Shown: one piece after another, positions 14,701 to 58,391 of the stretch
Numbering within the stretch: position 1 is the first letter of the stretch
How the letters are laid out: the number at the start of each line of letters is the position of its first letter
DNA from: Antedon mediterranea
Lineage: Eukaryota > Echinodermata > Crinoidea > Comatulida > Antedonidae
Length of the DNA stretch: 64,000 nucleotides
Reading direction: 5' to 3'
Assembly: GCF_964355755.1 (NCBI RefSeq)
Contig: NC_092677.1
Coordinates: 28,366,101-28,430,100 of the forward strand
Program-made: the position numbers and the translations under genes
The notes under the pieces: generated by a model
The model's database searches: none
The model's input: only the letters and a program-made list of their open reading frames with translations
Told to the model about the DNA's origin: nothing

Positions 14701-16957
14701 ATACAGACTTGCATACAAACACACTACTGTACATATTGAGAACTTGAGCATAGATACAGACTTGCATACAAACACACTACTGTACATATTGAGAACTTGA
14801 GCATAGATACAGACTTGCATACAAACGCACTACTGTACATATTGAGAACTTGAGCATAGATACAGACTTGCATACAAACACACTACTGTACATATTGAGA
14901 ACTTGAGCATAGATACAGACTTGCATACAAACACACTACTGTACATATTGAGAACTTGAGCATAGATACAGACTTGCATACAAACACACTACTGTACATA
15001 TTGAGAACTTGAGCATAGATACAGACTTGCATACAAACACACTACTGTACATATTGAGAACTTGAGCATAGATACAGACTTGCATACAAACACACTACTG
15101 TACATATTGAGAACTTGAACATAGATACAGACTTGCATACAAACACACTACTGTACATATTGAGAACTTGAGCATAGATACAGATTTGATTAATAGGCAC
15201 CACTAGCTCTTTTTTAGATATGTAATAAGTGAATGTTTTAAGGTTTTTTATTCATGTATGTTTTTAATTGTATGGTACGATATCTAATTTTATTAAGATG
15301 TTTCTATTTTTATAGCAATTTTAACTAATTTTTAGTCATTTGTAATACATTTCATTTCAGTCCTTGACTGTCGTTTTGTAATATATTTTTATATACCGAA
15401 TAAATAAATAAATAAATAAAACACACTACTGTACATATTGAGAACTTGAGCATAGATACAGACTTGTATACAAACACACTACTGTACATATTGAGAACTT
15501 GAGCATAGATACAGACTTGCATACAAACGCACTACTGTACATATTGAGAACTTGAGCATAGATACAGACTTGCATACAAACACACTACTGTACATATTGA
15601 GAACTTGAACATAGATACAGACTTGCATACAAACACACTACTGTACATATTGAGAACTTGAGCATAGATACAGACTTGCATACAAACACACTACTGTACA
15701 TATTGAGAACTTGAGCATAGATACAGACTTGCATACAAACACACTACTGTACATATTGAGAACTTGAACATAGATACAGACTTGCATACAAACACACTAC
15801 TGTACATATTGAGAACTTGAGCATAGATACAGACTTGCATACAAACACACTACTGTACATATTGAGAACTTGAGCATAGATACAGACTTGCATACAAACA
15901 CACTACTGTACATATTGAGAACTTGAACATAGATACAGACTTGCATACAAACACACTACTGTACATATTGAGAACTTGAACATAGATACAGACTTGCATA
16001 CAAACACACTACTGTACATATTGTTTTACACAGTTTAAAAGAAGCATAAAAGTATTAAATATACTGCATAATTACAGTCACAAGTGAAAGTCACACTACA
16101 GTGTAATAGGTAGTTATAGTGTATAGGAATTTATACAATCAAGACCTATGATGATGATGATGACCTATGATGTGTGGTGGTAAAAATTAAAACAGTATTT
16201 TTAGTACAGCAGGCGGGTATTGTTTGTTATTACGGATCTTTGCTTATTATAGGAATTATGCATAATTAAAACATGAGTTCCCCCAACCCCCACCCCCACT
16301 TCTTTACCCTCTTGCGACGGGTATCACTTGCTATATTTGTAAGTTGTATATTAATGTGTTGTTTTCTTTATTATTCTAGTCTCACATTCATCATATGCAA
16401 TCAGAACCAAAAGGTGCAGCTGCTGCTGAAGACAACAATGGCGACTTAAATGCAATTCGTTTGAAAGCACAAGCAACTTCTTTGAAATTGGCTTCATTGT
16501 CAAGAGATGCAGAACAACAATTTAAGTATGTTGACATTCTGTTTACATTCCTTTATTAATGCAGTCTTCTTCTTCTTCCCTAGTCTCCTGGTCTAGGCCA
16601 TTTATATACACAGCACATAACAGTCAGTACAGTAGAATATTATTACACTTAAATGCGATAATTAACTAACAAGTTTAACTAGTTGTATCTGTTGTCATTT
16701 TATCTAAATGTAATTTTAAAACTCCATTGGTTCTTCTGATTCAGTTATATTTAACTTATTACTTTCACACAGTGTTAATTAATACAGAATGATGACATGA
16801 TAGATGTATGTTGATTCTGTATTTGATATTGATATATGTATTTCTTTGTAGGCAATTACTGGGAGGTGTTGAGACATTAAAGGTGATTGCAGAGACTTTA
16901 GCTTGTATAGATAAAGTTGTTGAAGATAATGAATCCAGGCATTCAACTGCATTATGA
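8706..16957 (+). CDS. ENTR1: Endosome-associated trafficking regulator 1 (SDCCAG3)
   Basis: ENTR1 is an endosomal coiled-coil adaptor that works in recycling, cytokinesis and cilium-related trafficking. Seven exons join in phase: 8706-8880, 9620-9708, 10898-11589, 13475-13586, 14086-14148, 16380-16525 and 16852-16957, giving 460 residues (human about 435). Two NPF motifs lie at residues 13-15 (NPFSFESFL) and 70-72 (NPFLFKHF); the first matches the human NPFSFREFL block. The middle is polar and low in complexity. The C-terminal third is coiled coil with VQHVEDNL, RAVAAENHVSKLKQEI and a GVETLKVIAETL tail, which match the human order. An acceptor precedes the first ATG. A second possible first exon is listed separately. 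The intron at 14149-16379 is mostly minisatellite. Confidence 0.9.
9818..9950. mobile_element. Small MITE with inverted ends, ENTR1 intron 2
   Basis: The left end CTGTCTACACCCTATCAAA is mirrored by TTTGATAGTGTAGACAG at the right end. The subterminal GATGTGCCCAAATATGG is mirrored by CCATATATGGGCACATC. The arms enclose about 30 bases. This is the structure of a short nonautonomous DNA transposon. Target duplications were not resolved. Confidence 0.75.
10739..10804 (+). CDS. ENTR1: Candidate alternative first exon of ENTR1
   Basis: An ATG opens 22 codons (MAFVRRLFAGGSSAPKHHK...) ending in GCAAAA next to a GTAAGA donor. The phase matches the exon starting at 10898. The upstream 60 bases look like a leader and lack an obvious acceptor, so this would be a second promoter giving a shorter isoform without the two NPF motifs. 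Inferred from phase, donor and basic N-terminal sequence; no transcript evidence. Confidence 0.5.
14205..15182. repeat. 53-bp minisatellite, about 18 copies (first block)
   Basis: A 53-base unit containing GAACTTGAGCATAGATACAG and ACACACTACTGTACATATT is repeated with few changes (GAGCATAG or GAACATAG). It fills the intron after ENTR1 exon 5. Confidence 0.95.
15183..15420 (+). mobile_element. Retroposon-like insertion with (AAAT)n tail
   Basis: About 238 bases unrelated to the 53-bp unit interrupt the array, which resumes afterwards. The insert ends in several AAAT repeats, as LINE or SINE copies often do, on the + strand. A few bases of the repeat unit are missing at the junction. No clear target duplication was seen. 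Confidence 0.6.
15421..16023. repeat. 53-bp minisatellite, about 11 copies (second block)
   Basis: This block continues the same unit as 14205-15182 after the insertion, with the same GAG/GAA variants, so both blocks were one array before it. Confidence 0.95.
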
Positions 16958-24542: not shown

Positions 24543-27500
24543 ATGGGAGCAGCTAAATCAACGAGTGATTCTGCTTCAAGGTCTTTGACCAAATACAATC
24601 AGTCCATTACACTATTCTCTCCTGAAGAACTTGCTGAGTTAAAGTTAATTTTCCATGACATTTGTAGAGATAATGCTAATAAAAATGTATTTTGTGAACA
24701 ACATTTAAAGGTATGAATAAAAACATTGTTCCCTATACATTAAAAAAGATGCCCACAAATTTCCCCTTGATTTTTTTATAAACTGTTTAAAACTAGTCTA
24801 TTTCTAGAAACCTAAGTATACAATATTGTGATATTGAAAAGATTTATTATCTATTATTATTTATAATTCACAGAAATATATTAGTGGTAGAGTACCAGAC
24901 ACAATTGTGAGTAAATTATTTATGATGATGTGCGACAAAGAAGAGTATGTATCATATGAGAATTTTATGGTTTCCATGGCAGATTTTATTAAAGGAATGG
25001 TTGATCAACAGGCATCTGTTTTGTACACACTGGCAATTTCTGAAGACAAAATATTCACTTTAAGTTCTTTTAGAAAGGTGAGCAAAACACAATTATAATA
25101 GGAACATTTATTTATCATACTTATTTATTATCATGTAAATAGTGCACTATATAATATGCAGACTCTGGTAGCCTACTGTACATTAGGAGCACAAAAACAG
25201 ATTGAATGCAAGATCACCATCTGACCAGGGCCAGCCTCATCGTAGGTTACAGGACCCACCCTAAATGTCATGTCATAATATAATTATTTACATGATTCAG
25301 GTACTTGAAATGTTTCTTAAGTGTTATGAGGCTATTCTTAAGAACATGGATGTTAATCTGACACCATCAGACACGACAAAACCAAATCAAGTTTTCGTGG
25401 ATGTATGTGTGCAAAACGTTCAAGGTAAGGTTACCTATGGTACAATTTAATCTGTTTATGCTCAATCACATCATCCTAATGATATTGACCTCTAATGTAA
25501 TATCATTGCTAGCAGTAAGTATTATTTTGCGTTGTTTAGATGGAGATATAAAGAGTGCCCTCGATGTTTGCACATGGCTTCAAGACAAACCGCTGATTCA
25601 GACAATTCTAACCGACATAATGATGTATTGCTTTCATATAAAAAACAATCAACTAAAGGTACCATCAGTTTTTTTAAATTAAATTGTGTGTTCTTACTAG
25701 TAGTATCATTCTGATGTTATGGTTAAATTGTTATTTTTATTATTTTTTGCTTTTTTATGGTAGTTCACCTCATTGCCATGTCATTTTCTAAATGTTTTAA
25801 TCGCACTCAAAGTAATCATCACATGTTGTTACTTTTCAGGAAGAGCAAAGTAAAGCAGATAGTACAACAACTTACTTGTCTCCACTGTTGCCACAATTGG
25901 TAGATGTAAATTGGGATAATTTCACATCTTTATTGAGCATGCCGTCTATTTTACTAATTAATCATCACTTACCTCACAATTTGAGGCATATTTGGAGATT
26001 AGTATATGCTGTTGATTTGCACGGAGCAAGCTTCTCTACACTTGTCAAAAAAATCAGCTTACAGGGACCAAGTATTCTACTAGTTAAAGACAAAGAGGGA
26101 CATGTTTTTGGTGGATTTGCATCTGTAAATTGGAAAATTGGACCTAGTTTTATTGGTAATTAAATCTTTATTTTTAAATGACTATGATTATTGATAACTT
26201 GATTTATTATGTATGTCCAACTAGTATTGTACGATTTTGGTTAGTAAAGATATTTTTTCTTCAATGAAATAGAATTGAGGTTTAACAAGAGCGTGAGTAT
26301 AATTAAAATGAACCATTAAGTTTTCCTTTTTCTATTTTTAATAGGTTCCAGTGAGTGTTTTTTATTCTCATTGTTGCCATCAATGGCAATATATGAAAGT
26401 ACAAGTATCAATGAACATTACATGTATTTGAATATGGATCAAGAAACACTTCCTAATGGGCTAGTAAGTACAGTTGTGGCACAACAGTTTATCTCATTAA
26501 ATTAGTCAAAGGTTCACCAGATTACAATAGAACCTTCTATTAAGAGGAAACCTTCAGACATTAACAAAGTGTTTCCGTACTAGAAAGGCTGTAGTGCTAA
26601 AACATAGAGCCATTGTTCATTTCACTGAAAATGTTCCCTAAAAAGGCTGTAGTGCTAAAACATAGAGCCATTGTTCATTTCACTGAAAGTGTTCCCTAAA
26701 AAGGCTGTAGTGCTAAAACATAGAGCCATTGTTCATTTCACTGAAAGTGTTCCCTAAAAAGGCTGTAGTGCTAAAACATAGAGCCATTGTTCATTTCACT
26801 GAAAGTGTTCCCTAAAAAGGCTGTAGTGCTAAAACATAGAGCCATTGTTCATTTCACTGAAAATGTTCCCTAAAAAGGCTGTAGTGCTAAAACCTAGAGC
26901 CATTGTTCATTTCACTGAAAATGTTCCCTAAAAAGGCTGTAGTGCTAAAACATAGAGCCATTGTTCATTTCACTGAAAGTGTCTCCTAAAAAGGCTGTAG
27001 TGCTAAAACATAGAGCCCTTGTTCATTTCACTGAAAGTGTTCCCCAAAGGGGGATGTCTACTGTACTGTACATTTATAAATTGTAGAGTAAACTGTATTT
27101 TTTAATATTTTAATTCTAGGGTATGGGAGGTCAGTTTAGTTATTTTGGTTTGTGGTTGGACCAAGATTTTGGTATAGGTCACAGTAAGGCTCAGCCGAGA
27201 TGTACTACATATAACAGTACTCAACTCTCTGCATCAGAACAGTATAATGTTGATATGCTAGAGGTATGGGCAGTTGGAGATATTCCTAAAGTTACAATAA
27301 AGGTATAATATTTACATTTTATAATAAATTATAGTTAAAATAAATATTATTTATGAATATGAATGCGATTGTGCATAAATTAGATGCTTGAATATTACTT
27401 ACAGGAAGAACAAACGTGCAGTATTTTAGACAAAGACCCAGAAGCAAGAGCTCTTTTGGATATCATAGGAAAAGAAAGAAAGAGTGAAGGATTAAGAGAA

Positions 27501-34628: not shown

Positions 34629-34842
34629 TGACATATTCCGGAGACAACACTAAATTTGTTCAAACTCAAAATCTGTGTAAAATAATAAGAGTTTCGGCAT
34701 GGCTGCCTTTGTTTATTTAACAATTGTTAGTGAATACAATCATGTTGTATTATGGTATAGTAATTCATTATACAATACACACAGCACCATTACAAAGCAA
34801 TTTGCTTTATGTACATTATTATTAAAGACTTTTTAGTAAATT

Positions 34843-35510
34843 AGGCCTCCACAATAACAAGCTTCATTATTACATTAGCCATTTTGTTGTAGTTTATTAG
34901 GCCTCCTCCACAATAACAAGCTTCATTATTACATTAGCCATTTTGTTGTAGTTTATTAGGCCACAATAACAAGTTTCATTATTACATTAGCCATTTTGTT
35001 GTAGTTTATTAGGCCTCCTCCACAATAACAAGCTTCATTATTACATTAGCCATTTTGTTGTAGTTTATTAGGCCTCCACAATAACAAGCTTCATTATTAC
35101 ATTAGCCATTTTGTTGTAGTTTATTAGGCCTCCTCCACAATAACAAGCTTCATTATTACATTAGCCATTTTGTTGTAGTTTATTAGGCCTCCTCCACAAT
35201 AACAAGCTTCATTATTACATTAGCCATTTTGTTGTAGTTTATTAGGCCTCCACAATAACAAGCTTCATTATTACATTAGCCATTTTGTTGTAGTTTATTA
35301 GGCCTCCACAATAACAAGCTTCATTATTACATTAGCCATTTTGTTGTAGTTTATTAGGCCTCCACAATAACAAGCTTCATTATTACATTAGCCATTTTGT
35401 TGTAGTTTATTAGGCCTCCACAATAACAAGCTTCATTATTACATTAGCCATTTTGTTGTAGTTTATTAGGCCACAATAACAAGCTTCATTATTACATTAG
35501 CCATTTTGTT
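34843..35510. repeat. 56/59-bp minisatellite, about 12 copies, 3' of CEBPG
   Basis: The unit contains CACAATAACAAGCTTCATTA and TTAGCCATTTTGTTGTAG. Copies differ by a CTC insertion (GGCCTCCA or GGCCTCCTCCA) or a short deletion. It lies 215 bases past the stop and may be transcribed as 3' UTR. Confidence 0.94.
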
Positions 35511-41970: not shown

Positions 41971-44900
41971 ATGGGGTTGTTATCATCAGTTTGGTATATC
42001 TGTCTGGGTTTAATAATTGTAAGCATTCTAAGCCCGATGACCGTGTATCGTCGGTCTCACATTGACAGTGCAGTTGCAGCATCTGATTTGCCTGTTGTGA
42101 CTGCTAGGCCTAGGCCTAGTAGTGATGTAACGCAGTCAAGCAATACCGATTCTGGTGATTTGGTAACCACAAATAAAACTTTCCACAATCATAGGTAAGG
42201 TACAGAATTCCTAACTGGAAATAGCATATAGGCCTAGTAGGTAGATGTCCTGAAATCGAGGTTTTAGTTTTTGTGTTTGTTTACTTTGTATTGAATTGTA
42301 TTGTACTTTAATTAAGTTTAAGTATTCAATAAGTAAGTAGTTTATTATATTAGTTAGTAATATAATATAGGCCTAGTGAAATATAGTCCATAATATAGAC
42401 CTAGGCCTAGTAAGTATTTAGTTTTGTTTCAAATTGTTTTATTTTTTAATATTTTATGGTGGTGGGTATACAATATAATAAACAATTGTTTAACTAGATT
42501 TCGATCCAAGTCGGCCCTAAACCGTCTCGGCCAAAGTCAAGTCGGCCCCAAGTCAAGTCGGCCTCAAGTCAACTCGGCCTCAAGTCAACTCGGCCTCACG
42601 TCAACTCGGCCAAAAAAATAATCGGTCAACTCGGCCCCGTTAAAGTATGGAACGCAAAAAGTGCAAATGAAGGCGATTGATAAATAATATTTCTTCACAA
42701 TTTTTTAACTATGAATAATTCTGACTTTTAATGAATATTATTATTTAGACAATAATATATTTAGCAAAAAAAATAGGAATGATTTCACCAACTTTCCTTT
42801 ATTTACGTTTAATAAAATTTCAAATTGCACAATTGAAAACAATTCGTAGCGGAGCCTCCCCGCGCGTTTGGCAGCTTTTTCGATATCTACAACTGCTACG
42901 TGTTTTCGCTGACCGGGGGATTCCCCTTTTTTTTAAAACGCAAATCATGGACAAAAACGATGTACGATCATTTTTTCTGTGACCAAATGGTGGAACGTAG
43001 GCCTCCATTCGATTTACTAGAATGCGGTACCTGCACGTATTTTTGTAACACGCGGGTACTTCTATTCAGATCGGCAATGAGTTAATTTTTTTATATATTT
43101 AATTATATTATATTTTTTATTTCTTCATTTTTTTTAAAGCCTGGATGTAAGAATCATAATAATATTAAGCACTTTTTGCGTTCCATACTTTATTGTGGCC
43201 GAGTTGACCGATTATTTTTTGGCCGAGTTATGTGAGGCCGAGTTGACTTGGGGCCGAGTTGACGTGGGGCCGACTTGACTTTGGCCGAGACGGTTTGGGG
43301 CCGAATTGACCTGCACCCGTTTAACTAATGTGATTTTAAACGTTGCGTATGTATTTTTATATGCTTTTCATTATAATATTTAGCACTGAAACAATTATAA
43401 ATCCATTGTTAAAAAAAAGTAAATCACCGACAACAGAAACTCCTGAGCGTGATAATCTCCTTCCGGCAGAAGGATCAGCCGATGAAGAAACATCTTCTAG
43501 TATGACAATATTCTTCATTCTTATTGTGGTTGGTAAGTGCAACAGCAGCTCATTGGTTTTAAACCTGTCATCATTGATTGTGTATTGTACATCATAAACC
43601 AACACTTTATAATTTTATAATAATTTTTTTACAGGTATATCAATATTTTGTGTACATTCTTTAATAAAGTACCAATTTCATTATTTACCTGAGAGTGTTG
43701 CTGTGATTTTACTAGGAGCAGTTATTGGCCTATTGCTTATGATTCTCAACAATAGGAATCTGACAGATTGGACAGTAAGTTTAATCAGACACACATTTCA
43801 ATGAGCATGGTAACAGCTTTTACCACTAGTGGTATCTTTCAATGAGCATGGTAACAGCTTTTACTACTAGTGGTATCTTTCAATGAGCATGGTAACAGCT
43901 TTTACCACTAGTGGTATCTTTCAATGAGCATGGTAACAGCTTTTACTACTAGTGGTATCTTTCAATGAGCATGGTAACAGCTTTTACTACTAGTGGTATC
44001 TTTCAATGAGCATGGTAACAGCTTTTACCACTAGTGGTATCTTTCAATGAGCATGGTAACAGCTTTTACCACTAGTGGTATCTTTCAATGAGCATGGTAA
44101 CAGCTTTTACTACTAGTGGTATCTTTCAATGAGCATGGTAACAGCTTTTACTACTAGTGGTATCTTTCAATGAGCATGGTAACAGCTTTTACTACTGGTA
44201 TCTTTCAATGAGCTACTACTAGTGGTATCTTTCAATGAGCATGGTAACAGCTTTTACCACTAGTGGTATCTTTCAATGAGCATGGTAACAGCTTTTACCA
44301 CTAGTGGTATCTTTCAATGAGCATGGTAACCGCTTTTACCACTAGTGGTATCTTTCAATGAGCATGGTAACCGCTTTTACCACTAGTGGTATTTTTCAAT
44401 GAGCATGGTAACAGCTTTTACCACTAGTGGTATCTTTCAATGTACATTGTATGTTATTGTTCTTCCTATGCGACATGTGCACAGCACGTTAATTAATGTC
44501 TTAATTCATTATGTGATTCCAAATTCGTAAACAGAGGAATTTTAGTATAATTATTATTTAATGCTGCATGGTAGAAATCAATTTTGATTATTCATTTTAA
44601 CAGAAAAAACTTGAATCTATTAATTGGGAACATAAAATTCAGTGAACCTAATGAAAAAAAGTCACGGTTTAAAAAAATATATGTGTATAGATTATTTACC
44701 AACGCGTGTTTTATTTTGACAGAAAGAAGAAACTTTGGATCCAACTACTTTCTTTTTGGTTGTTTTACCACCAATTATATTTGAATCTGGATATTCATTA
44801 CATAAGGTAAATGGTGATTATTCTGAAAAACTAATTTCCAAGCACAGAAAACAAAGTATCATTATTTATAATTGTCTCCTGTCAAACCTAGAGATAGAAA

Positions 44901-47900
44901 TTGAAACTCTAACCCTAATCTTTTTTAAATTTTGTGCTTTGAAAGACATTTTCTCAAAATGTGGTTGATAATAACAAGTAACTTTCAATATGATGGATAG
45001 TGACAATAAGTCTTATCATTTCATGTACAAAAAATTATCCCTGAGATACTTCATGATATTTTTCAGGGTAATTTCTTTCAAAACCTTGGATCAATCTTGG
45101 TATTTGCTGTTTTTGGAACATTCATTTCAGCAATGGTAATAGGTGGAGGAGTCTATCTTCTTGGACAGGTAAGTCAGTAGATTATATACATTGTTTACGA
45201 ATAATCTCTTATACCAGTGTTATTGACAGTATTGTTAAACTACAATATTATTGAGGATAAAACAAACAAAAACATAATTTTATCAATAGGTTTGGATGTC
45301 ACCTTATAATAAACTTTGTAATGGCAGGTTTTTATTTGTATTAGTAGTTTCTTGTAATTTTACCCATTGTTTAACTGGCTTTGATGTTACTGTACAAAAT
45401 AAATATTGTATTTTAACTAATTAATCATAGTGTACTTGTTCATGAACCGTTTTACTGGGACTGAATTAAAGAATTAAATGTTTATAATAATTAATATAAA
45501 AATTTTGAGCAATAATATTTATTATTTAGGCTGGTGTTGCATATGAACTGAGTATGGTAGAAAGTCTTGCCTTTGGTTCCACCCAGTAGCTATCATTAGC
45601 TATATTCTCAGCACTTGATGCTGCTGAACCACTTCTTAATATTTATTATTTAGGCTGGTGTTGCATATGAACTGAGTATGGTAGAAAGTCTTGCCTTTGG
45701 TTCGTTAATATCAGCTGTAGACCCAGTAGCTATCATTAGCTATATTCTCAGCACTTAAAGCTGAACCACTTCTTACGCCCGTATTCTTAAACCGGACTTT
45801 AGTCGTAGTTCGAGCTAAAACTAAAAAAATGACGTCATTTTAATTCATAAACCGAACTTCAACTAAATCGCCGACTAATTCAGGCCAACCTCGACTAAAT
45901 CGAGACGGATTTTGATCGATTTTTTTAGTCCTGGAGGGGGCAGGCTAAATGGTCGACTAAATGGTTTTTAAACGATGTTTATGAAAAACGTAACAGTCAT
46001 TGAGTTGTTATATTGGCCAGATATTGAAGAATGAAATATCTATTTTTATATTAGCTTAATTAAATATACATTGGTATATGTTATAATAATGAAAATCATC
46101 TTTATTTACAACTGTATACAAATTACATAATTTTCTTCGCGCAAGTCCGACTTCAACTACGTCACGCCATAGCGACAATGGCAGATGCGGAAATTCACCA
46201 CGCGATGGAATGTTTAGGGGGCCTAGCGCTTTCTTGTCACGCTATGAAGTGCGTGGTTCGTCGCGATCATACTTTGTTGGGGGCCTAGAAAATATAAAAG
46301 TTACCGTACCGCCATGGTTCCTAAATATATTTTGAAGATTTTGTTTGTTGTTAATCAAAATACTTCACTGTTAAATTAATACTGATCTTGTTCTAATAAT
46401 TAACGATTAAAATTATTTTTCATGTATAGTCCTGATGCGTAAAAAGTGTTGTAAGAAAATGGAAAGTGATATCAATGCGCAAAATTTCGTCTGCTCCTCA
46501 AATACTCTCTTGTCATTGGCCAATGTATAGCCTTTTTAACCCAGACGTGTGCAACTCGACTAAAAGCTCGACTTCATTAAGTTGAACTGCAAACTTTGAC
46601 TACTTCGTTTTTGAATCGAATTTGAAGTAATAGCTCAAACTACGACTTTTTCAAGTCGAACTTCGAACTACGACTAAAGTCCGGTTTAAGAATACGGGCG
46701 TTAATATTTATTATTTAGGCTGGTGTTGCATATGAACTGAGTATGGTAGAAAGTCTTGCCTTTGGTTCGTTAATATCAGCTGTAGACCCAGTAGCTACAT
46801 TAGCTATATTCTCAGCACTTGATGCTGAACCACTTCTTAATATGATGGTATTTGGAGAAAGTATTCTGAATGATGCTGTATCCATTGTTATGAGCAAGTA
46901 AGTTGTTTCAATTGTTGTTTGTTGTTTACGTATAAAATAATGAAGTCTATAATTCCTATTTTCCAAGAGAGTTTCCCTGTAAACTGATGTTAGTTTTACT
47001 ATTTAGTACTGTAATGATGCTAAATTCTCCAGAGATGGCTGATATAAGCTCCACACATGCTTTCTTCTCCGGTGTCATGTACTTTTTCTTCATGTTTATC
47101 ACGTCTGCTTTTATTGGCATTGGTTTTGCTCTACTCAGTGCTCTTATATCCTTTACTGTATGTCATTCATAGTAGGCAATAATTCATGATTAGTAATAGG
47201 TTATACTGTTATCATAATTAGTTATCCGCTTGGTTACCAAGCGGATAACTCCTTGTTATTGTATGAGATCAACATTTTTTTTCTGTATTATTAGTTATCC
47301 GCTTAGTAGCGGATAACTCCTTGTAATCGTCCTGTTTCATCATATTTTTTTTTTTTTTTTTTTTCTGTATTATACTTCTTTCCTTCTGTCATTTTTGTGC
47401 GTCGCGTTTCTCTGAAACGTGTAAACAGAACAAATCGTAACTTTGTCAACATATCGACATTTACGTGAACTTGTGCACCTCCTATTTTTTAATGACGTCA
47501 GAGTTGCGCAACGTGACTTACGCGCGATTTTATGAATTTCAATGATTGATCATAGACTAAAAACCAAACATAACTTTGTTTTGACACTTTGTGAAAATTT
47601 AAGTTACATCAAGCGCAAACTTTCTATGGATTAAAAATAGCATCTTTCACAAGAAGTTACGCGCGCACGCGCGTTTAAAATTTTAGAGTGCGAAAAATCA
47701 ACTTCTAATCAACTTTCTATGCGTTTCATGTCATTTTGAGCATGTCAAAAATTCCCACGCGCGCGAAACTTTTTACGCACGCGGTGCACACGTAGCGTTA
47801 AAAACATATTTTTTTCGCGTGATTTATGTTTTTTCAGCCTTTTATAGTAATGTTACCAACTTTTAAACAATTTCGACTTAAAATTACGTCATACGAGCAC

Positions 47901-50900
47901 GTCGAATTAAATAATTTGCACGCGTTTCTGGTGAAAAAGTTCAAAAATTCGTCAAAATTATGCCTATTTTTAAACAGTCATAGATTCTAAACTACATGGA
48001 GAACTTTTTTTTAATTACATATTCTGGAAGTGGATGAGTTGTAGATATCGAATCATGCATTAATATGGCTAACCGGACATTGTAACGTCATCGTATGGCC
48101 ACGCAAATATAAAATATAGGATTTTTGTCTCTTTCGTCATAGTTCATCACATTTAATAGAGCGCATCTCCACTTATTCGTTGTCCATTTTCACCCCGATT
48201 TTAATATATTCTAGGTCAATCAACTATCTTTTGCATGAATTAAAAATTTTTTAATTTTTTCAACGTCATCATGCCTAAAAATTTAAATTACGTTGGTCAT
48301 TAATTTCATCTTTACAGTAAATTTTAATCTGTTATAGCTCGTAAGAATAAAATGTGATAATCACGATTAAAACGTTTTCAGGAAGCTATTGTATTGTAGA
48401 TACAAAATCATGTGAAAATTGCTCCAATCGAATGTTGTGACGTCATCATATGGCCAGTTAAATACAAAAAGTCGTATTTTCATCTTTCGCGTTATATTTC
48501 ATTACATTTAAAAGAGCGCGCATCAATATTTCACGTATTCAAATTTCTTCTACACGTTAATATGTTGTTGCTGAGATAATTTCATTCTGAAATTTCTACT
48601 TTTGCATTTCATTTTGAAACCGTCAAGATGTTAAAAATTACAATAAAATACGGGTCCCGTAATTTCACCTATTTTACACTGTTTGTGATATGTATACAGA
48701 TTGTACTGTGTATACTATGTATATGACACAAAATAACAGAATTCAGAAATAACAACATATCATATTCTTCAGTTCAGGTCATAATGCCTTAATATTTTTC
48801 TGTGTGCAATATTCTAACGTATGACGTGCACATGGCGTTTGTCGAGCGGATAACTAACTCGTCATAGTAACGAGTTTCATGTCTAGTTAGTTATCCGCTT
48901 AGTAGCGGATAACTCCTTGTAATCGTCCTGTTTCATCATATTTTTTTTTTTTTTCTGTATTATACTTATTAGTTATCCGCTTAGTAGCGGATAACTCCTT
49001 GTAATCGTCCTGTTTCATCATCTTTTTTTTTTTTTTTTTCTGTATTATACTTCTTTCCTTCTGTCATTTTTGTGCGTCGCGTTTCTCTAAAACGTGTAAA
49101 CAGAATATATCGTAACTTTGTCAACATATCGACATTTACGTGAACTTGTGCACCTCCTATTTTTGAATGACGTCAGAGTTGCGCAACGTGACTTACGCGC
49201 GATTTTATGAATTTCAATGATTGATCATAGACTAAAAACGAAACATAATTTTGTTTTGACACTTTGTGAAAATTTAAGTCACATCAAGCGCAAACTTCCT
49301 ATGGATTAAAAATAGCATGTTTCACAAAAAGTTACGCGCGCACGCGCGTTTAGAATTTTAGAGTGCGAAAAATCAACTTCTAATCAACTTTCTATACGTT
49401 TCATGTCATTTTGAGCATGTCAAAAATTCCCACGCGCGCGAAAGTTTTTACGCACGCGGTGCACACTTAGAGTTAAAAACATATTTTTTTCGCGTGATTC
49501 ATGTTTTTTCAGCCTTTTCTAGTAATGTTACCAAATTTTAAACAATTTCGACTTAAAATTACGTCATACGAGCACGTCGAATTAAATAATTTGCACGCGT
49601 TTTTGGTGAAGAAGTTCAAAAATTTGTCAAAATTATGCCTATTTTTAAACATTCATAGATTCCAAACTACATGGAGAACTTTTTTTTAATTAAATATTCT
49701 GGAAGATGATGAGTTGTAGATATCGGATCATACATTAATATGGCTAACCGGACATTGTGACGTCATCGTATGGCCACGCGAATATAAAATATAGGATTTT
49801 TGTCTCTTTCGTCATAGCTCATCACATTTAATAGAGCGCATCTCCACTTATTCGTTGTCCATTTTCACCCCGATTTTAATATATTCTAGGTCAATCAACT
49901 ATCTTTTGCATGAATTAAAAAATTTTTAATTTTTTTAACGTCATCATGCCTAAAAATTTAAATTACGTTGGTCATTAATTTCATCTTTACAGTAAATTTT
50001 AATCTGTTATACCTCGTAAGAATAAAATGTGATAATCACGATTAAAACGTTTTCAGGAAGCTATTGTATTGTAGATACAAAATCATGTGTAAATTGTGCC
50101 AATCGAATGTGGTGACGTCATCATATGGCCAGTTAAATAAAAAAAGTCGTATTTTCATCTTTTGCATTATATTTCATTACATTTAAAAGAGCGCGCATCA
50201 ATATTTCACGTATTCAAATTTCTTCTACACGTTAATATGTTGTTGCTGAGATAATTTCATTCAGAAATTTCTACTTTTGCATTTATTTTGAAACCGTCAA
50301 GATGTTAAAAATTACAATAAAAGACGGGTCCCGTAATTTTACCTATTTTACACTGTTTGTGATATGTATACAGATTGTACTGTGTATACTATATGACACA
50401 AAATAACAGAATTCAGAAATAACAACATATCATATTCTTCAGTTCAGGTCATAATGCCTTAATATTTTTCTGTGTGCAATATTCTAACGTATGACGTGCA
50501 CGTGGCGTTTGTCGAGCGGATAACTAACTCGTCAAAGTGACGAGTTTCATGTCTAGTTTCCTTCCGTCATTTTTGTGCGTCGCGTTTCTCTAAAACGTGT
50601 AAACAGAACATATCGTAACTTTGTCAACATATCGACATTTACGTGAACTTGTGCACCTCCTATTTTTGAATGACGTCAGAGTTGCGCAACGTGACTTACG
50701 CGCGATTTTATGAATTTCAATGATTGATCATAGACTGAAAACCAAACATAATTTTGTTTTGACACTTTGTGAAAATTTAAGTCACATCAAGCGCAAACTT
50801 TCTATGGATTAAAAATAGCATCTTTCACAAAAAGTTACGCGCGCACGCGCGTTTAAAATTTTAGAGTGCGAAAAATCAACTTCTAATCAACTTTCTATGC

Positions 50901-53900
50901 GTTTCATGTCATTTTGAGCATGTCAAAAATTCCCACGCGCGCGAAACTTTTTACGCACGCGGTGCACACGTAGCGTTAAAAACATGCTTTTTTCGCGTGA
51001 TTTATGTTTTTTCAGCCTTTTATAGTAATGTTACCAACTTTTAAACAATTTCGACTTAAAATTACGTCATACGAGCACGTCGAATTAAATAATTTGCACG
51101 CGTTTCTGATGAAAAAGTTTAAAAATTCGTCAAAATTATGCCTATTTTTAAACAGTCATAGATTCTAAACTACATGGAGAACTTTTTTTTAATTACATAT
51201 TCTGGAAGTTGATGAGTTGTAGATATCGAATCATGCATTAATATGGCTAACCGGACATTGTGACGTCATCGTATGGCCACGCGAATATAAAATATAGGAT
51301 TTTTGTCTCTTTCGTCATAGCTCATCACATTTAATAGAGCGCATCTCCACTTATTCGTAGTCGATTTTCATCCCGATTTTAATATATTCTAGGTCAATCA
51401 ACTATCTTTTGCATGAATTAAAAAATTTTTAATTTTTTTAACGTCATCATGCCTAAAAATTTAAATTACGTTGGTCATTAATTTCATCTTTACAGTAAAT
51501 TTTAATCTGTTATAGCTCGTAAGAATAAAATGTGATAATCACGATTAAAACGTTTTCAGGAAGCTATTGTATTGTAGATACAAAATCATGTGAAAATTGT
51601 GCCAATCGAATGTTGTGACGTCATCATATGGCCAGTTAAATACAAAAAGTCGTATTTTCATCTTTCGCGTTATATTTCATTACATTTAAAAGAACGCGCA
51701 TCAATATTTCACGTATTCAAATTTCTACTACACGTTAATATGTTGTTGCTGAGATAATTTCATTCTGAAATTTCTACTTTTGCATTTCATTTTGAAACCG
51801 TCAAGATGTTAAAAATTACAATAAAATACGGGTCCCGTAATTTCACCTATTTTACACTGTTTGTGATATGTATACAGATTGTACCGTGTATACTATGTAT
51901 ATGACACAAAATAACAGAATTCAGAAATAACAACATATCATATTCTTCAGTTCAGGTCATAATGCCTTAATATTGTTCTGTGTGCAATATTCTAACGTAT
52001 GACGTGCACGTGGCGTTTGTCGAGCGGATAACTAACTCGTCAAAGTGACGAGTTTCATGTCTAGTTCTTCTTTCCTTCCTTCCTTTTTGTGAGTCGCGTT
52101 TCTCTAAAATGTGTAAACATAACATTTCATAACTTTGACAACATATGGGCATTTACGTGAAGTTGTGCACCTCCTATTTTTGAATGACGTCATAGTTGCG
52201 CAACGTGACTTACGCGCAATTTTATGAATTTCAATGATTGATCATAGATTAAAAACCAAAAGTCATTTAGTATTGACACTTTGACAAAATTTAAGTCATA
52301 TCAGGGGCAAACTTTCTACGGATTAAAAATGGCATGTTTCACAAGAAGTTACGCGCGCACGCGCATTTAAAATTTCAAAATGCGCAAAATTAATTTCTAA
52401 TCAACTTTTTACGCGTTTCATGTCATTTTGAGCATGTCAAAAATTCCCACGGGCGCGCAATTTTTTACGCACGCGGTGCGCACGTAGCGATAAAAACATA
52501 TTTTTTTCTCTTGAATTATATTTTTCAAGCCTTTCCTAGTAATTTTGAAAACAATTTAGACCTTTTCCAGTTTAAATAACGCCATACGAACACGTTGAAT
52601 TAGACAATTTGTGCGCGTTTTTTATGAAAAAGCTTAAAAAATCATCAAAATAATGTCTTTTTTTAAACAGTCATAGTTTCTAAAGTAAACCGTGAACCGT
52701 TTATTTTTATTACAAAATCTAGAAGTTGATGAGTTGCAGATATCGGATCATGCATCGATAAGGCTAAAAAAACATTGTGACGTAATCGTATGGCCACACG
52801 AATGTAAAATATAGGATTTTTGTCTGTTTCGTTATTGCTCATCACATTCAATGGAGCGCATCACGCTTATCTGTATTCCTTTTTCTCCTATATTTATATA
52901 TTGTCTAGGTCAATCAACTTTCTTTAGCATGAGATAAAAATATTTAAATTTTTATAACGTCATCATGCCTAAAAATTTTAATTACTTGGGTCATTAATTT
53001 CATCTTTACAGTAAATTTTAATCTGTATTGGCTCGTAAGAATAAAATGTGATAATCACGATTAAAACGTTTTCTGGAAGCTATAGGATTGTAGATACGAA
53101 TTCATGTAAACATTTTGCCAATCGGATGTTGTGACGTCATCATATTGCCAGTTGAATAAAAAAAGTCATATTTTCATATTTTGCGTAATAGTTCATCACA
53201 TTTAAATGTGCGCGCACCAACATTTTACGTATTCAAATTTCTTCTACACGTTAATATGTTGTTGCTAAGATAATTTTCTTCAGAAATTGCTATCGTTGTG
53301 TTGTTTTTTTTATGACGTCATCATGTTAAATATTTGAATTAAAGGCAGGTCCCATAATTCAGTTAATATGTCATATAATATACAGTAGTACAATGTACAC
53401 CAGCATAGTCTCTGATGTGAGCAAATTGTTGTTTGCCGCCCTCTGTATCATGTAGAATTAATGTCTCCTTTTATACACAGTGTACTGTATAATTATAATA
53501 CAAGGCGAAAATACAGGACCACCTCTTATTATAGTTTTTAACGTATGACGTGCACGTGGCATCTGTCGTGCGGATAACTAACTCGTCAAAGTGACGAGTT
53601 TCATGTCTAGTTATTAATTGTTATGTGCTTGTTAAGCCTTTATATTTAGCCTCCCTTTTTTCTGTTCTATTATAATTCTATTATAGAAAAGTGTCTTTTG
53701 TGAGAATAATGAATTGCCAATAGGCTTGTTACTAATAATAGTCTAGTATAATAATTGTTAAACACTCTCACTTTGACTCTCACTCAGGAGAGACTGCAGA
53801 GAAAGAACCAGGAGATAGACAATAAATACCAGATCACTTATGATTGTCTAATGTTATTATTAATACTAATAGTCAGAGTACAATTAACATCTAATCATAA

Positions 53901-56900
53901 CATAAACACTTTTAATGTACTAACACCCTGTCTCAAGGGAAAAGGAGATTTTTAAGATGTTTGCTTCCTTACATTAAGTACATTTTAAAGCATTTTGACT
54001 TGAGGAAGACACCGTCCCTTGAATTGGGTATGCTTTTGATTTTTTCTTATTTACCGTATGGATTTGCAGAAGGAGTCAAATTATCTGGTAAGTATACTTA
54101 TATTACATAGTCTATATAAATACGCGAACGTGATTGGTTGAAACTGCATCACATGACTACCGCTGCGAGGATCGTAAATCATATCCTCGAGAACGATGAT
54201 ATTGACTGAGTAATTTTCGCGTAATTATCGTGTCCCTGTCATTAACCATTTCAATTCTTGAGTACGATGATATGGACTGTGTAATGTTCGTGTGGCAACA
54301 CTCGCGTTTGCCGATAAAATAAACAAAAGTCATCTACTGGGTCTTGAACTTGCGATGAAATTGTCACTACATCACAAGACAACGCTTCATGCGCTGCGCC
54401 ACGGAACTTGCTTGAAGAAAGTAATCATCTAAACTATTTAAACTATGCATACATAGCGCCCTCATTTATTTTTAGTCCTCCCTAGATAGGATGAAAGACC
54501 GTTTGTGATTGGTTAATACTCACAGTAGTAACCGGTACGCGCGCGACGCACTGAACATCCGGTGATTCGGCTCGAAGAAGACGAATTATTATTTATTCGG
54601 CCTAGGCCTACCTGATAATATTATTATTATTAATGTAGGCTTATTGATGGAAATTCTTCTGTTATTATTTAAACGACCTAGGCTAGTGAATATTTTATTG
54701 TCAAGGAATCATTAATTAGTAATTATCTGTATATTATTCTTCGCAAGGTACGGTGTCTAGACAGCTTGTTTACATACACTACAAAAAGGAGGCCTAGCCT
54801 AGCTACCCGACCCAGCAGATATTCTACTTAGCCTAGTACTTGTTGTTGGCTATGTAATATAACAGATATCGCCTTTTATATCGGTAAAATATAAGATTTA
54901 ACAACCCCTCAGGATAATATTATGTTCTCGGGGAATTATATATTTACCTCAGCTGCTCTTCGGTAAATATATATTCCCTCGAACATAATATCATTCCTTT
55001 GGGGATGTCAAATCTTATATTTAACCTCTAAGCAGGCAATATCTGTATAATATACTACCTGCACTGTATAGAAGGTACTAAATAAGCACACCAACTATAA
55101 ACTTCAGGTCTCTTTATGTGAATGGAAATCACAGCAATCACTATAACTTATATCAGTAAGTTTTCAGCTGATTGAGTTGGGAGGGTTGTCCAATCCTAAC
55201 TATGTATGTAGACTCTGGCGTTGTCACTAACAGTGTGGTGTAGTAACTTGAGCTGACAGGCTTTGTTGAAGATTGATGATTTCTTTATATTTGTAGGAAT
55301 AATGTCAATTTTATTTGCTGGTATTACCATGTCCCATTACACCCACTACAATCTGTCTCCTATCACCCAAATAACGGTGCAGCATACATTCAGAACCATG
55401 GCATTTATTGGTGGTAAGTTTAACACTGTTATATTTGTGTAATCAAACAATCTAAGCATCATCAATTGTTATAATATGTGTCACTTATCTTATTACTGTA
55501 GAAACTTGCGTATTTGCATACCTTGGCCTTGCAATATTCAGTTTCAACCACCGGTTTGAAGCGGCACTTGTTATTTGGAGTATAGTAAGTTTATTATTCA
55601 TTTATGAAGTAATGCCGGTATCAAATAAAATATATATAAACAAATTACTAACAAATTGCTTTTACTTTTGTTTTTAGTTTTTGTGTTTGATTGCTAGAGC
55701 GTTGAACATTTTTCCTTTGTCGTTTCTTGTCAATTTCTTCAGAGAACATAAAATTAATCACAAAATGCAGTTTATAATGTGGTTTAGTGGTAAGGCATCT
55801 TTTGATATAATTCATAATATTCATAATATTCATAATATTCATTTTCATTTGCTCCTTCCCTTGCAACTATATGCATATTACTATCTCAGGTGGCTTATTA
55901 TAATATTTATATAGTTTTACTATTTAGTTATCCGCAACGAAGTTGCAGGATAACTCCTTGTAATTGTACGAAATCATCATCATCATCTTTTTTTTCTTTT
56001 TCTTCTTTCTTTCTGTAATTTTGTGTCACGTGTATCTATAAAACTTGCAAACATAAAATTTTGTAACTTTCTCAACATATCGTTATTTTGAGCATGTCAA
56101 AAATTCCCATGTGGGCGCACATTTTTACGAGTGCGGTGCGCAGGTAGCGTTAAAAACATCATTTTTCCGAGTGATTTCTGTTTTTCCAGCCCTTTCCAGT
56201 AATTTTACCAACTTTTAAACAATTTTCGACTTAAAATGATGTCATACAAGCACATAGAATTGGACAATTTGAGTGCGTTTTTGATGAAAAATTTGTCAAA
56301 ATTATGCCTTTTTTTAAACAGTCATAGTTTCTAAACTAAACGGTGAAAGTTATTTTTATTTCATATTCTGGAAGTTGATGAGTTGTAGATATCCGATCAT
56401 GCATTAATATGGCTAACTGTACATTGTGACGTCATCGTATGGCCACGCGAATATAAAATGTAGAGTGCATCTCCACTTATCCTTTTTCCATTTTCACCCC
56501 GATTTTGATATTGTCTAGGTCAATCAACTGTCTTTCGCATGAGTTAAAAATATTTTAATTTTTATGACGTCATCATCTCTAAAAATGTAAATAACGTGGG
56601 TCACTTATTTTCATCTTTACAGTAAATTTCAATCTGTTATAGCTCATCAGAATAAAAAGTGATAATCATGATTAAAACGTTTTCTGGAAGCTATTGGATT
56701 GTAGATACGAATTCATGTGAACATTTTGCCAATCCGATGTTTTGGCCTCATCATATGGCCAGTTGAATAAAAAACGTATTTTCACCTTTTGCGTCATAGT
56801 TCATCACATTTAAACGAGCACGCATCTATATTTTAAGTATTAAAATTTCTTCTACACGTTGTTTGTTGTTCCTGAAATAATTTCCATCCGAAATTGCTAT

Positions 56901-58391
56901 CTTAGTGTTTCATTTTGATACCGTCGTCGTGAATAAACGGCGTGTCCCGTAATTTCACCTATTCTACACTGTATGTAATATGTATACAGATTATACTGTT
57001 TATACTGTATATACTATATGACACAAAATTGACAGAATTCAGCAATAACAACATATCATATTCTTCAGTTCAGGTCATAATGCCATAATCTTTTTCTGTG
57101 TGCAAAATTCCAACGTATGACGTGCACGCGGCGTTTGTTTTGCAGATAACTAACTCGTCAAAGTGACGAGTTTAAATCTAGTGTATTAAGAAGTGTACTC
57201 TTACATTGATATGAAAGCCAGAAGAAAATGTTTTCACTACTGTTACATTATTGACCTATCTGTTTGTGTTTGGTAGGTTTGAGAGGTGCTATTGCTTATG
57301 CTTTAAGTCTTCACTTGGAGTTTGCTGATGATACCCACCATGTTATTGTCACTACAACACTGGTTATTGTATTGTTTACTGTTGTAATCTTAGGAGGTTC
57401 CACTATGCCATTACTAAAGGTAAGAGTATAGAAAAATATTACTGCATAAGCTGCTGCTTTGTAACCATTACTTAAGGTAAGAGTATAGACATATATTACT
57501 GCATAAGCTGCTGCTTTGTAACCAATCAAATACTTCATCATGGTGACATAGTTTAAATGTGAATTAGTAGAACCTAACCCAATACATTTTTTCTACAGTT
57601 GTTAGAATCAAACGAAAGTAAAAAACACAAGAAACATGTCAAGTTCAGCAAAACTGAAGAAATGGTGATGATTTCTCTTTTTTTTAAATATAAATAGTTT
57701 ATGCTTTAAATATCTATCTATGTTGATATATGTGGAGCATTGACTATCCAAAGCAAGTAAATTCCTAGTTTTTATATTAATCTGTTATTCTATCAGGGCA
57801 GTGCTGTAGATGCTGATCATCTGTCAGAGTTAACAGAAGAAGAGTATGAAGTGAACTATGTGAAACCAAACCAACAAGGATTTGTAAGATGGGACACAAA
57901 ATATTTCATCCCATTTTTTACAAGGAGATTTACACATGAGGTACTTGATATTGTTGTTTTACAACCACACAATCCAGTCTAGTCTAAGGGCCAGGCTTCA
58001 ATTTTTATCAAAATAATAGGAAAAGTTTCAGTTTCAGTTTATTTTCCATTTCAATTTATGAACATAAGATAAACAACTTATAAGTATTCTATGGCTGTAC
58101 ACTGTTCAATTTTGTGGGTATGATGTCCGTAGCCTTGGTCTAATGTGTTGCTGGTGATAAAACCTTTTTGCTTTAAGTTCCACAACAATTTTACATTTTT
58201 AGCTTATAAAAATTGATCAAGTTGAATGTAGTTTGTATAGCCTAAACTAAACTGGAAATTGGAATAAGTTTGTAATTATTTTTGATCGCCAGGAACTCCA
58301 CAATGGTCAAATGGAGATGAAACGACTGACAAACAGATGGTATTCTCAGCTTCAAGGTCGTACATCAGAAACAGATGAAGAAGAGTTATAA
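41971..58391 (+). CDS. SLC9A8: Sodium/hydrogen exchanger 8 (NHE8)
   Basis: NHE8 exchanges Na+ for H+ in Golgi, endosomal and apical membranes. Fifteen exons join in phase: 41971-42194, 43384-43532, 43635-43774, 44723-44806, 45067-45168, 46719-46897, 47007-47157, 53979-54087, 55297-55413, 55502-55584, 55678-55789, 57277-57419, 57599-57664, 57797-57940 and 58293-58391, giving 633 residues (human 581). Landmarks are SSSMTIFFILIVV, LPPIIFESGYSLHKGNFFQN, ISAVDPVATLAIF, the FGESILNDAVSIV signature with the transport Asp, DLRKTPSLE, GITMSHYTHYNLSP, and GLRGAIAYALSLHLE with its conserved Arg. The acidic tail is LTEEEYE...ETDEEEL. The N-terminus is longer than in human, with one hydrophobic segment. 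Exon 6 has two degenerate upstream copies, and introns hold several transposons. Confidence 0.95.
42497..43318. mobile_element. Mutator-like MITE with repeat-built inverted ends, NHE8 intron 1
   Basis: The 822-bp element is flanked by the 9-bp direct repeat GTTTAACTA (42488-42496 and 43319-43327). About 150 bp at each end are inverted copies, built of tandem CAAGTCAACTCGGCC-like subrepeats and a shared AAAGTATGGAACGCAAAAAG block. Long ends with a 9-bp target duplication fit the Mutator (MULE) superfamily. The interior has no intact transposase frame. The interior at 42890-42960 resembles 25-85 of this window. Confidence 0.85.
43794..44440. repeat. 41-bp minisatellite, about 15 copies, NHE8 intron 3
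   Basis: The unit TCTTTCAATGAGCATGGTAA followed by CAGCTTTTACCACTAGTGGTA repeats head to tail. Each holds the palindrome ACCACTAGTGGT, which in some copies is reduced to TACTAGTGG. One unit is truncated near 44195-44225. Confidence 0.95.
45511..45774 (+). pseudogene. Two degenerate copies of NHE8 exon 6 with its acceptor
   Basis: Copy 1 (45511-45637) and copy 2 (45638-45774) repeat the polypyrimidine/acceptor stretch and the first two thirds of exon 6. Copy 1 lacks about 18 bases around TTAATATCAGCTGTAG. Both have CTATCATTAGC where the true exon has CTACATTAGC, which shifts the frame. Neither keeps the exon's 3' part or a donor, so neither can replace the functional exon at 46719-46897. Confidence 0.9.
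45776..46700. mobile_element. Harbinger-type MITE between NHE8 exon 6 copies
   Basis: The 925-bp element starts CGCCCGTATTCTTAAACCGG and ends with the exact inverse. The perfect inverted repeat is about 36-40 bp, with more inverted similarity inside. TTA occurs on both sides (45773-45775 and 46701-46703). The copy1/copy2 junction gives the empty site CTTCTTAATATTT, confirming a 3-bp TTA target duplication, the PIF/Harbinger signature. No intact transposase frame. Confidence 0.88.
47220..48886 (+). mobile_element. Helitron/Helentron-like element, copy A
   Basis: Starts with hairpins AGTTATCCGC/GCGGATAACT; a divergent short one at 47220 is followed by a regular one at 47293. Ends with GCGGATAACTAACTCGTCAT, a stem ACTCGTCA/T(A)ACGAGT, and about 7 bases then CTAG. 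A 3' hairpin close to a CTRR end is the Helitron hallmark. Paired subterminal inverted repeats suggest the Helentron or HINE subtype. No Rep/helicase frame, so nonautonomous. It lies in NHE8 intron 7. Confidence 0.65.
48887..50556 (+). mobile_element. Helitron/Helentron-like element, copy B
   Basis: It directly abuts copy A and has nearly the same body sequence. It has two tandem copies of the 5' hairpin segment (48890 and about 48968), each followed by a T run and TGTATTATACTT. It ends in the same 3' hairpin and CTAG at 50553-50556. Confidence 0.65.
50557..52064 (+). mobile_element. Helitron/Helentron-like element, copy C (5' truncated)
   Basis: It begins inside the element (TTTCCTTCCGTCATTTTTG) without the 5' hairpin. 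It runs in parallel with copies A and B and ends at CTAG 52061-52064 after the ACTCGTCAAAGTGACGAGT hairpin. Confidence 0.65.
52065..53610 (+). mobile_element. Helitron/Helentron-like element, copy D (5' truncated, divergent)
   Basis: It is also 5' truncated (TTCTTCTTTCCTTCC). It is clearly more diverged from A-C throughout, with a replaced stretch near 53370-53520. It keeps the 3' hairpin and CTAG end at 53607-53610. Confidence 0.6.
54330..54413 (-). other. tRNA-derived SINE head
   Basis: In reverse complement, CCGTGGCGCAGCGCATGAAG looks like an A box and GCAAGTTCAAGACCC like a B box, separated as in Pol III promoters. The anticodon arm does not fold well, so it is a SINE or tRNA pseudogene in NHE8 intron 8 rather than a working tRNA. 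Confidence 0.55.
54862..55052. mobile_element. Long hairpin (foldback) element, NHE8 intron 8
   Basis: Two arms of about 80 bases (about 54867-54950 and 54963-55048) are imperfect inverted copies: AAATATAAGATTT near each outer part, ATAATATTATGTTC near the inner part and AATATATATTTACC next to a short loop (CAGCTGCTCTTC). This is a MITE-like or foldback structure. Target duplications were not resolved. Confidence 0.8.
55924..57181 (+). mobile_element. Helitron/Helentron-like element, copy E, NHE8 intron 11
   Basis: It starts AGTTATCCGCAACGAAGTTGC with a 5' hairpin and ends with the 3' hairpin ACTCGTCAAAGTGACGAGT, then TTAAATCTAG. The body matches copies A-D but lacks a block of several hundred bases after the 5' end. 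It stands alone 2.3 kb from the array, in the same orientation. Confidence 0.65.
57405..57525 (+). repeat. Tandem copy of the NHE8 exon 12 end and donor
   Basis: CCATTACTAAAGGTAAGAGT, the exon 12 end and its donor, is followed 56 bases later by CCATTACTTAAGGTAAGAGT and a copy of the next 40 bases (ATTACTGCATAAGCTGCTGC). This puts a second usable-looking donor in the intron. Confidence 0.88.

Follow-up and report, generated by a model that had tools for sequence, protein, structure and literature searches.

A row of four related transposable elements lies head to tail at positions 47218-53610 of the DNA that we analyzed, a window of 64,000 nucleotides from contig NC_092677.1 of the crinoid Antedon mediterranea (positions 28,366,101 to 28,430,100 of the forward strand). 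The row occupies an intron of a Na+/H+ exchanger gene (PF00999, E 9e-11). Its units, each about 1.6 kb long and all in one orientation (+), are non-autonomous Helentron (HINE) copies. We find that they are four insertions nested in each other, which can be written as D[A][C[B]]. The array has four 5' ends (47218, 47291, 48887 and 48969), each with a palindrome, and four 3' ends (48886, 50556, 52064 and 53610). With an opening bracket for each 5' end and a closing bracket for each 3' end, their order is (()(())). The parts are as follows, where ↓ marks an insertion point and numbers beginning with L denote other loci of the genome.

47218-47290 (+): displaced 5' arm of D, made up of TT, a palindromic subterminal inverted repeat (subTIR; 47220-47250), the CTTGTTATTGT box and a T-tract, and ending in CTGTATTA; arm score 1.00 against the uninterrupted D copy L057, rank 1 of 33
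47291-48886 (+): element A, complete, 1596 bp, from 5' TTAGTTATCCGC to 3' CTAG, inserted in D at CTGTATTA↓TTCTTC
48846-48886 (+): 3' end of A, with subTIR, hairpin (two changes) and CTAG
48887-48968 (+): displaced 5' arm of C, beginning right after the CTAG of A; arm score 1.00, rank 1 of 33, against L037, whose body is nearest to that of C
48969-50556 (+): element B, complete, 1588 bp, inserted in C at ATACTTA↓TTTCC
50516-50556 (+): 3' end of B, with subTIR, hairpin and CTAG
50557-52064 (+): body and 3' end of C (1590 bp without B), 0.4-0.5% from L037 and L040
52024-52064 (+): 3' end of C, with subTIR, hairpin and CTAG
52065-53610 (+): body and 3' end of D (1619 bp without its insertions), 0.27% from L057 and 0.41% from L033
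53570-53610 (+): 3' end of D, with subTIR, hairpin of 9-bp stem and CTAG; right edge of the nest
55924-57181 (+): element E, a fifth and solitary family member, whose 5' arm is joined directly to its body and which thus serves as an uninterrupted reference within the window

A preliminary description of this DNA had reported four units in one orientation, each ending in a repeat, a hairpin and CTAG, with the bodies of C and D joined exactly after the preceding CTAG. All of this is borne out, and the joins following CTAG are exact to the nucleotide. It had also stated that C and D lack the 5' hairpin, which is not the case: their 5' palindromes are present, stacked upstream and cut off from their own bodies by intervening copies. 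These intervening copies are the younger insertions. The insertion zone is T-rich and lies 40-80 nt inward from the 5' ends of resident copies. In the window, only the join between A and C is compatible with insertion at a 3' end, and insertion at the 5' boundary of C fits it equally well. The host intron had been ascribed to NHE8; the exchanger assignment stands at the level of the family.

Elements of this family are laid out as TT-AGTTATCCGC, a palindrome, followed by the interior and then by GCGGATAACTAA, a hairpin and CTAG. Note that the true 5' terminus includes the TT, as TTAGTTATCCGC and the 3' GCGGATAACTAA form a perfect inverted repeat of 12 bp, and the 5' copy is itself palindromic. 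Inward from TTAGTTATCCGC come a CTTGT(T/A)AT box, a T-tract, the body and the 3' GCGGATAACTAA; the 3' hairpin, which has a 9-bp stem (-10.8 kcal/mol), stands immediately before CTAG. The units in the window end in GCGGATAACTAACTCGTCA(A/T)AGT(G/A)ACGAGTTTCATGTCTAG. Element E, with 5' AGTTATCCGCAACGAAGTTGC and 3' ...GTTTAAATCTAG, belongs to another subfamily, about 16% from A, B and C. Across the 354-Mb genome, the 3' end motif has 1,097 matches with at most three mismatches, and since its reversed control has none, these matches are not due to chance.

Outside the family itself, copies insert without duplication at the consensus TWA↓TT, with T-rich DNA downstream. A T follows CTAG in 100 of 100 flanks, and an A precedes the insertion at 87% of non-self sites. 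Two insertions, at L038 and L039, lie in repeats that have many uninterrupted paralogues, and host and paralogues match in length across the junction. There is therefore neither duplication nor deletion at these sites if the element is taken as TTAGTT...CTAG. We rejected a TT target-site duplication, because right flanks of TA, TC and TG occur beside the left TT and because this TT is part of the 12-bp inverted repeat.

The nested order makes a prediction that the genome bears out. If the D arm ending at 47290 was once joined to the D body that begins at 52065, uninterrupted copies should carry the junction CTGTATTA↓TTCTTC. This junction has 15 exact matches in the genome, and 43 when up to three mismatches are allowed (control, 0); the copies fetched (L052-L056, L058 and, with its neighbors, L057) prove to be whole D elements at different places. 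Balanced, nested termini recur among the arrays that lie whole within a fetched stretch: the pattern is ((())) at L030 and L034 and (()) at L032, L033, L035, L043 and L044, and at L029 there is one 3' end too few for balance. Furthermore, displaced arms can be traced to their bodies. The assigned body has a close relative without interruption in 15 cases; in 12 of them, including both arms in the window, the displaced arm ranks first of 33-34 against the arm of this relative. Control arms score 0.53-0.54, as against 1.00 for the D arm in the window.

The copies also have separate histories. A, B and C are 2.0-3.1% apart, and each has a closer relative at another locus than its neighbor in the array; the nearest relatives of A (0.8-0.95%) are L031 and L030, which lie on other contigs, and that of B is L041 (2.3%). 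The preliminary description had taken A to C as close and D as the oldest copy. D, however, is 19-20% from A to C as a member of another subfamily and not through greater age; its closest relative elsewhere is at 0.27% (L057). With closest relatives outside the array, neither amplification in place nor concatemers fit. We are highly confident that the array is a nest of independent HINE insertions.

A stricter view of independence comes from an A-type guest that sits at the identical nucleotide of D at four loci with unrelated flanks (the window, L032, L033 and L044). Such common junctions, which we first read as the spread of one A-D dimer, could arise if a nest, once formed, moved whole by its outer ends. 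Mobilized chimeras with several 5' termini have been proposed for Fusarium Helitrons (PMC5148889), and this process could also yield the extra bodies seen in nests at L063, L065 and L069. The trees and the divergences speak against it. Monophyly of the four A guests is rejected (approximately unbiased test, P = 3.5e-89; log-likelihood loss of 129), and the guests are 2.0-3.6% apart while their D hosts are 0.4-1.2% apart, a several-fold difference. No congruent guest and host trees were found among hosts under 1.2% divergence. The A guests at the four loci are not one lineage and thus represent separate insertions at one nucleotide. We rejected the dimer on these grounds, and consider composite mobilization a very unlikely source of the array.

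Insertion into relatives dominates in this family. The exact hotspot accounts for 285 right junctions and 187 left junctions in the genome, with 380 hotspots empty. One self position takes about 26% of family copies (~1,100 3' ends), and roughly one such position in three, if not more, is filled. When 100 3' flanks were sampled, 44 fell within the 5' zone of the family itself, 6 within that of a sister family and 9 immediately ahead of a family 5' end, so that 59 of the 100 sampled 3' ends are at a Helentron 5' end. Copies inserted behind the 5' end of relatives are a quarter to half of all. Suitable target sequence is far more common than this: by a position weight matrix (PWM), about 4.5 million sites in the genome score at least as well as the D hotspot, and a D copy holds 14 further sites of that quality in its body. 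The 41 remaining flanks were compared with the family body, and none was located there, except for matches to the T-tract, to microsatellites or to their own locus. Random insertion over T-rich sites, with harmless insertions inside copies persisting, would draw on element bodies that are presumably neutral ground. It predicts insertions throughout the body, whereas the 14 equal sites in the D body are unused in the sample and a single 5'-zone site is occupied by about a quarter of all copies. Neither sequence preference alone nor the survival of harmless insertions alone explains the pattern, and survivorship appears to us marginally less likely even than movement of whole nests.

Judging from a few cases, it is probably the Helentron 5' zone as such that makes the hotspot, and not one particular subTIR sequence. 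At L039 the host belongs to another type of element, whose 5' end is palindromic, TTAGGTGATCATTT... (TTAGGTGATCATTTAGAATAAAATGATCACCT; also present in the upstream flank at L059), and at L038 a palindrome lies about 30 nt upstream of the insertion. The L039 host has three of its 5' arms in a stack ahead of the family copy, which suggests that this element has the same habit of self-insertion.

Two further explanations fare worse. Rolling-circle read-through past the 3' end in a single event, or repeated copying of a circle, could leave tandem units. The preliminary description had raised read-through as a cause, the units do stand head to tail with exact CTAG joins, and tandem Helitrons of bats have been interpreted in this way (as reported in PMC2267711). 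A concatemer, however, predicts ()() and not (()). Moreover, neighbors in the array are not mutual closest relatives, displaced arms that match downstream bodies are present, and uninterrupted hosts exist. We give this explanation hardly any weight. Least probable of all is unequal crossing-over or segmental duplication, which could explain the armless bodies at L063, L065 and L069 but is contradicted by units 2-20% apart, by locus flanks that are unrelated with no flank copied, and by breakpoints exactly at CTAG↓T. The preliminary description's other proposal, repeated targeting of the element's own end, proves right as to self-targeting, but the end targeted is the 5' zone of the resident copy and not the preceding 3' CTAG. 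Neither target-site duplications nor flanks copied with the array, which it had named as grounds for doubt, were found.

Several points weigh against nested, position-specific insertion as we describe it. In the nests at L063, L065 and L069, bodies outnumber matching arms by one, which needs either the later loss of one of two adjacent direct repeats of ~75 bp or some other process, such as mobilization of a chimera. Gene conversion between nested copies could blur the trees. The 100 flanks were the first listed (contigs C1-C3), not a random draw; mismatch limits differ between the pattern counts; and the PWM background came from 57 kb of the window. Among the autonomous copies examined, none had the exact AGTTATCCGC ends, and the mobilizing element is therefore one that we infer.

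Our reading of nested insertion is as follows. A HINE enters T-rich DNA between TWA and TT and leaves no target-site duplication, and the T-rich 5' zone of a resident copy offers CTGTATTA↓TT as a very strong hotspot. The newcomer shifts the resident 5' palindrome upstream and joins its own CTAG to the resident body; repeated rounds produce first stacked 5' ends and then an apparent head-to-tail row. The transposase of related autonomous Helentrons presumably drives insertion, and Rep may bind, nick and unwind resident 5' ends and in this way expose T-rich single-stranded DNA. The TT of the element itself recreates TWA↓TT at its 5' boundary, which would also account for copies placed right in front of a 5' end, as at the join between A and C. 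It is conceivable, at somewhat less than an even chance, that the 5' zone is favored because transposition initiates there and not for its target sequence alone. We hold just as tentatively to a broader idea of Helentron self-homing, in which the choice of target is linked with the state of the resident 5' end (Rep bound, nicked, unwound or extruded as a cruciform) across families with different subTIRs. If so, the place where transposition starts would also be the place of landing, and the element would make its landing site anew with every insertion.

More than 40 open Helitron_like_N reading frames of roughly 1,000-3,100 amino acids (aa) are found in the genome, and about thirty have a length close to 3,000 aa. 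We examined two autonomous elements, at C1:12324657-12346152 (~21.5 kb) and at about C1:14500503 to 14519043 (~18.5 kb). Both have GGTTATCCGC ends, with 5' TTGGTTATCCGC, 3' GCGGATAACC...GACGAGTT...CTAG and a matching hairpin. Their frames of 2898 and 3109 aa encode Helitron_like_N (Rep), a PIF1 helicase and Exo_endo_phos (PF14214, PF05970 and PF03372), as well as an OTU and a DUF6570 domain. The frames are inverted relative to the 5'-3' direction of the element. Inverted frames have been reported for Helentrons (in the account of PMC4067079) and some Helitron2-like elements (PMC5148889). According to the family and subfamily rule set out in PMC4067079, a partner shares at least 11 identical bp of subTIR plus 80% of the last 60 bp; our comparison, made at the subTIR only, finds TTGGTTATCCGC of the best partners among the autonomous copies examined identical to the family's TTAGTTATCCGC at 11 of 12 positions. 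Related autonomous Helentrons may thus move the window family, judging from ends that differ at one subTIR base. The second autonomous element has a related HINE nested in its 5' T-tract.

Elsewhere (L047:1-1264 and L049), an autonomous Helentron carries a non-autonomous relative of ~1.2 kb in its own 5' T-tract, with an array of further units of ~1.15 kb downstream of its 3' end. Autonomous frames of ~3,000 aa, mostly open, are clustered, often with spacings of 20-29 kb on one strand (C1:14.51-14.55, C3:20.30-20.36, C4:19.88-20.02 and C8:0.80-0.94 Mb), and these clusters are possibly larger nests of autonomous elements. A second Helitron_like_N group (L009-L013), with open frames of 400-1,450 aa and much higher scores, is probably a different Helitron family of the same genome. 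The window also holds long minisatellite arrays at 5578-6411 (64-bp units), 14208-16023 (53-bp), 26580-27048 (58-bp), 34840-35510 (56-bp) and 43796-44442 (41-bp).

In structure, the present elements are ordinary Helentron-type HINEs, and the Helentron-like identity first proposed for them is upheld. HINE/DINE-1 elements, as characterized by Thomas et al. 2014 (PMC4067079), have a 3' stem-loop, a T-rich or TT target without target-site modification, a Rep/helicase/endonuclease partner and palindromic subTIRs, which are placed 2 nt from the 5' end and close to the 3' end. Our family likewise has palindromic subTIRs, a 3' stem-loop, a TT target without duplication and Rep/helicase/endonuclease relatives. 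It differs in a 12-bp subTIR that includes the TT, in the CTAG 3' end, in insertion mostly at A↓TT and in massive self-insertion, which we did not find in that paper's account of HINEs. Compared with canonical Helitrons (Helitron1), it shares the 3' end (CTAG, as against CTRR after a hairpin) and A/T insertion but begins with TTAGTT and a 12-bp inverted repeat, where they have 5' TC and no terminal inverted repeats. Proto-Helentron-Pi of Phytophthora infestans, said in the account of PMC4067079 to be like canonical Helitrons in structure, resembles our family in its TT and CTAG ends and in A/T insertion without duplication; the palindromic subTIRs of our family set the two apart.

Self-insertion has precedents. 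For the non-canonical (Helitron2-like) Helitrons of Fusarium oxysporum, with a TNAT↓T target, doubled 5' termini of 31-85 nt led to the proposal of self-insertion, one FoHeli4 sits 2 bp upstream of another 5' terminus, and three tandem copies in Metarhizium were read as 5'-end insertion or rolling circle, the choice being left open (PMC5148889). In maize, one adjacent head-to-tail pair posed the same question, consecutive insertion or a rolling-circle tandem (PMC2267711). The maize and bat cases are boundary-to-boundary pairs as reported there, whereas most joins in our family lie inside the resident 5' zone. The Fusarium cases are a handful with the mechanism left open; for our family there are more than 1,000 3' ends, along with empty sites, tests of independence and specificity of position. 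What is newly supplied here is that self-insertion dominates, that it hits one single nucleotide, that empty sites exist and that the events are independent.

This is of importance for head-to-tail Helitrons of bats, maize and fungi, for which few cases could decide between concatemers and repeated insertion (as far as PMC2267711 and PMC5148889 describe them). The present family offers hundreds of cases with empty sites, and these favor repeated, position-specific insertion at resident 5' ends. Helentron target choice thereby becomes directly testable. Annotated 'tandem' Helitrons, extra 5' termini and copies without 5' ends may be nests, and our findings suggest how an element can spread although its insertions go largely into itself.

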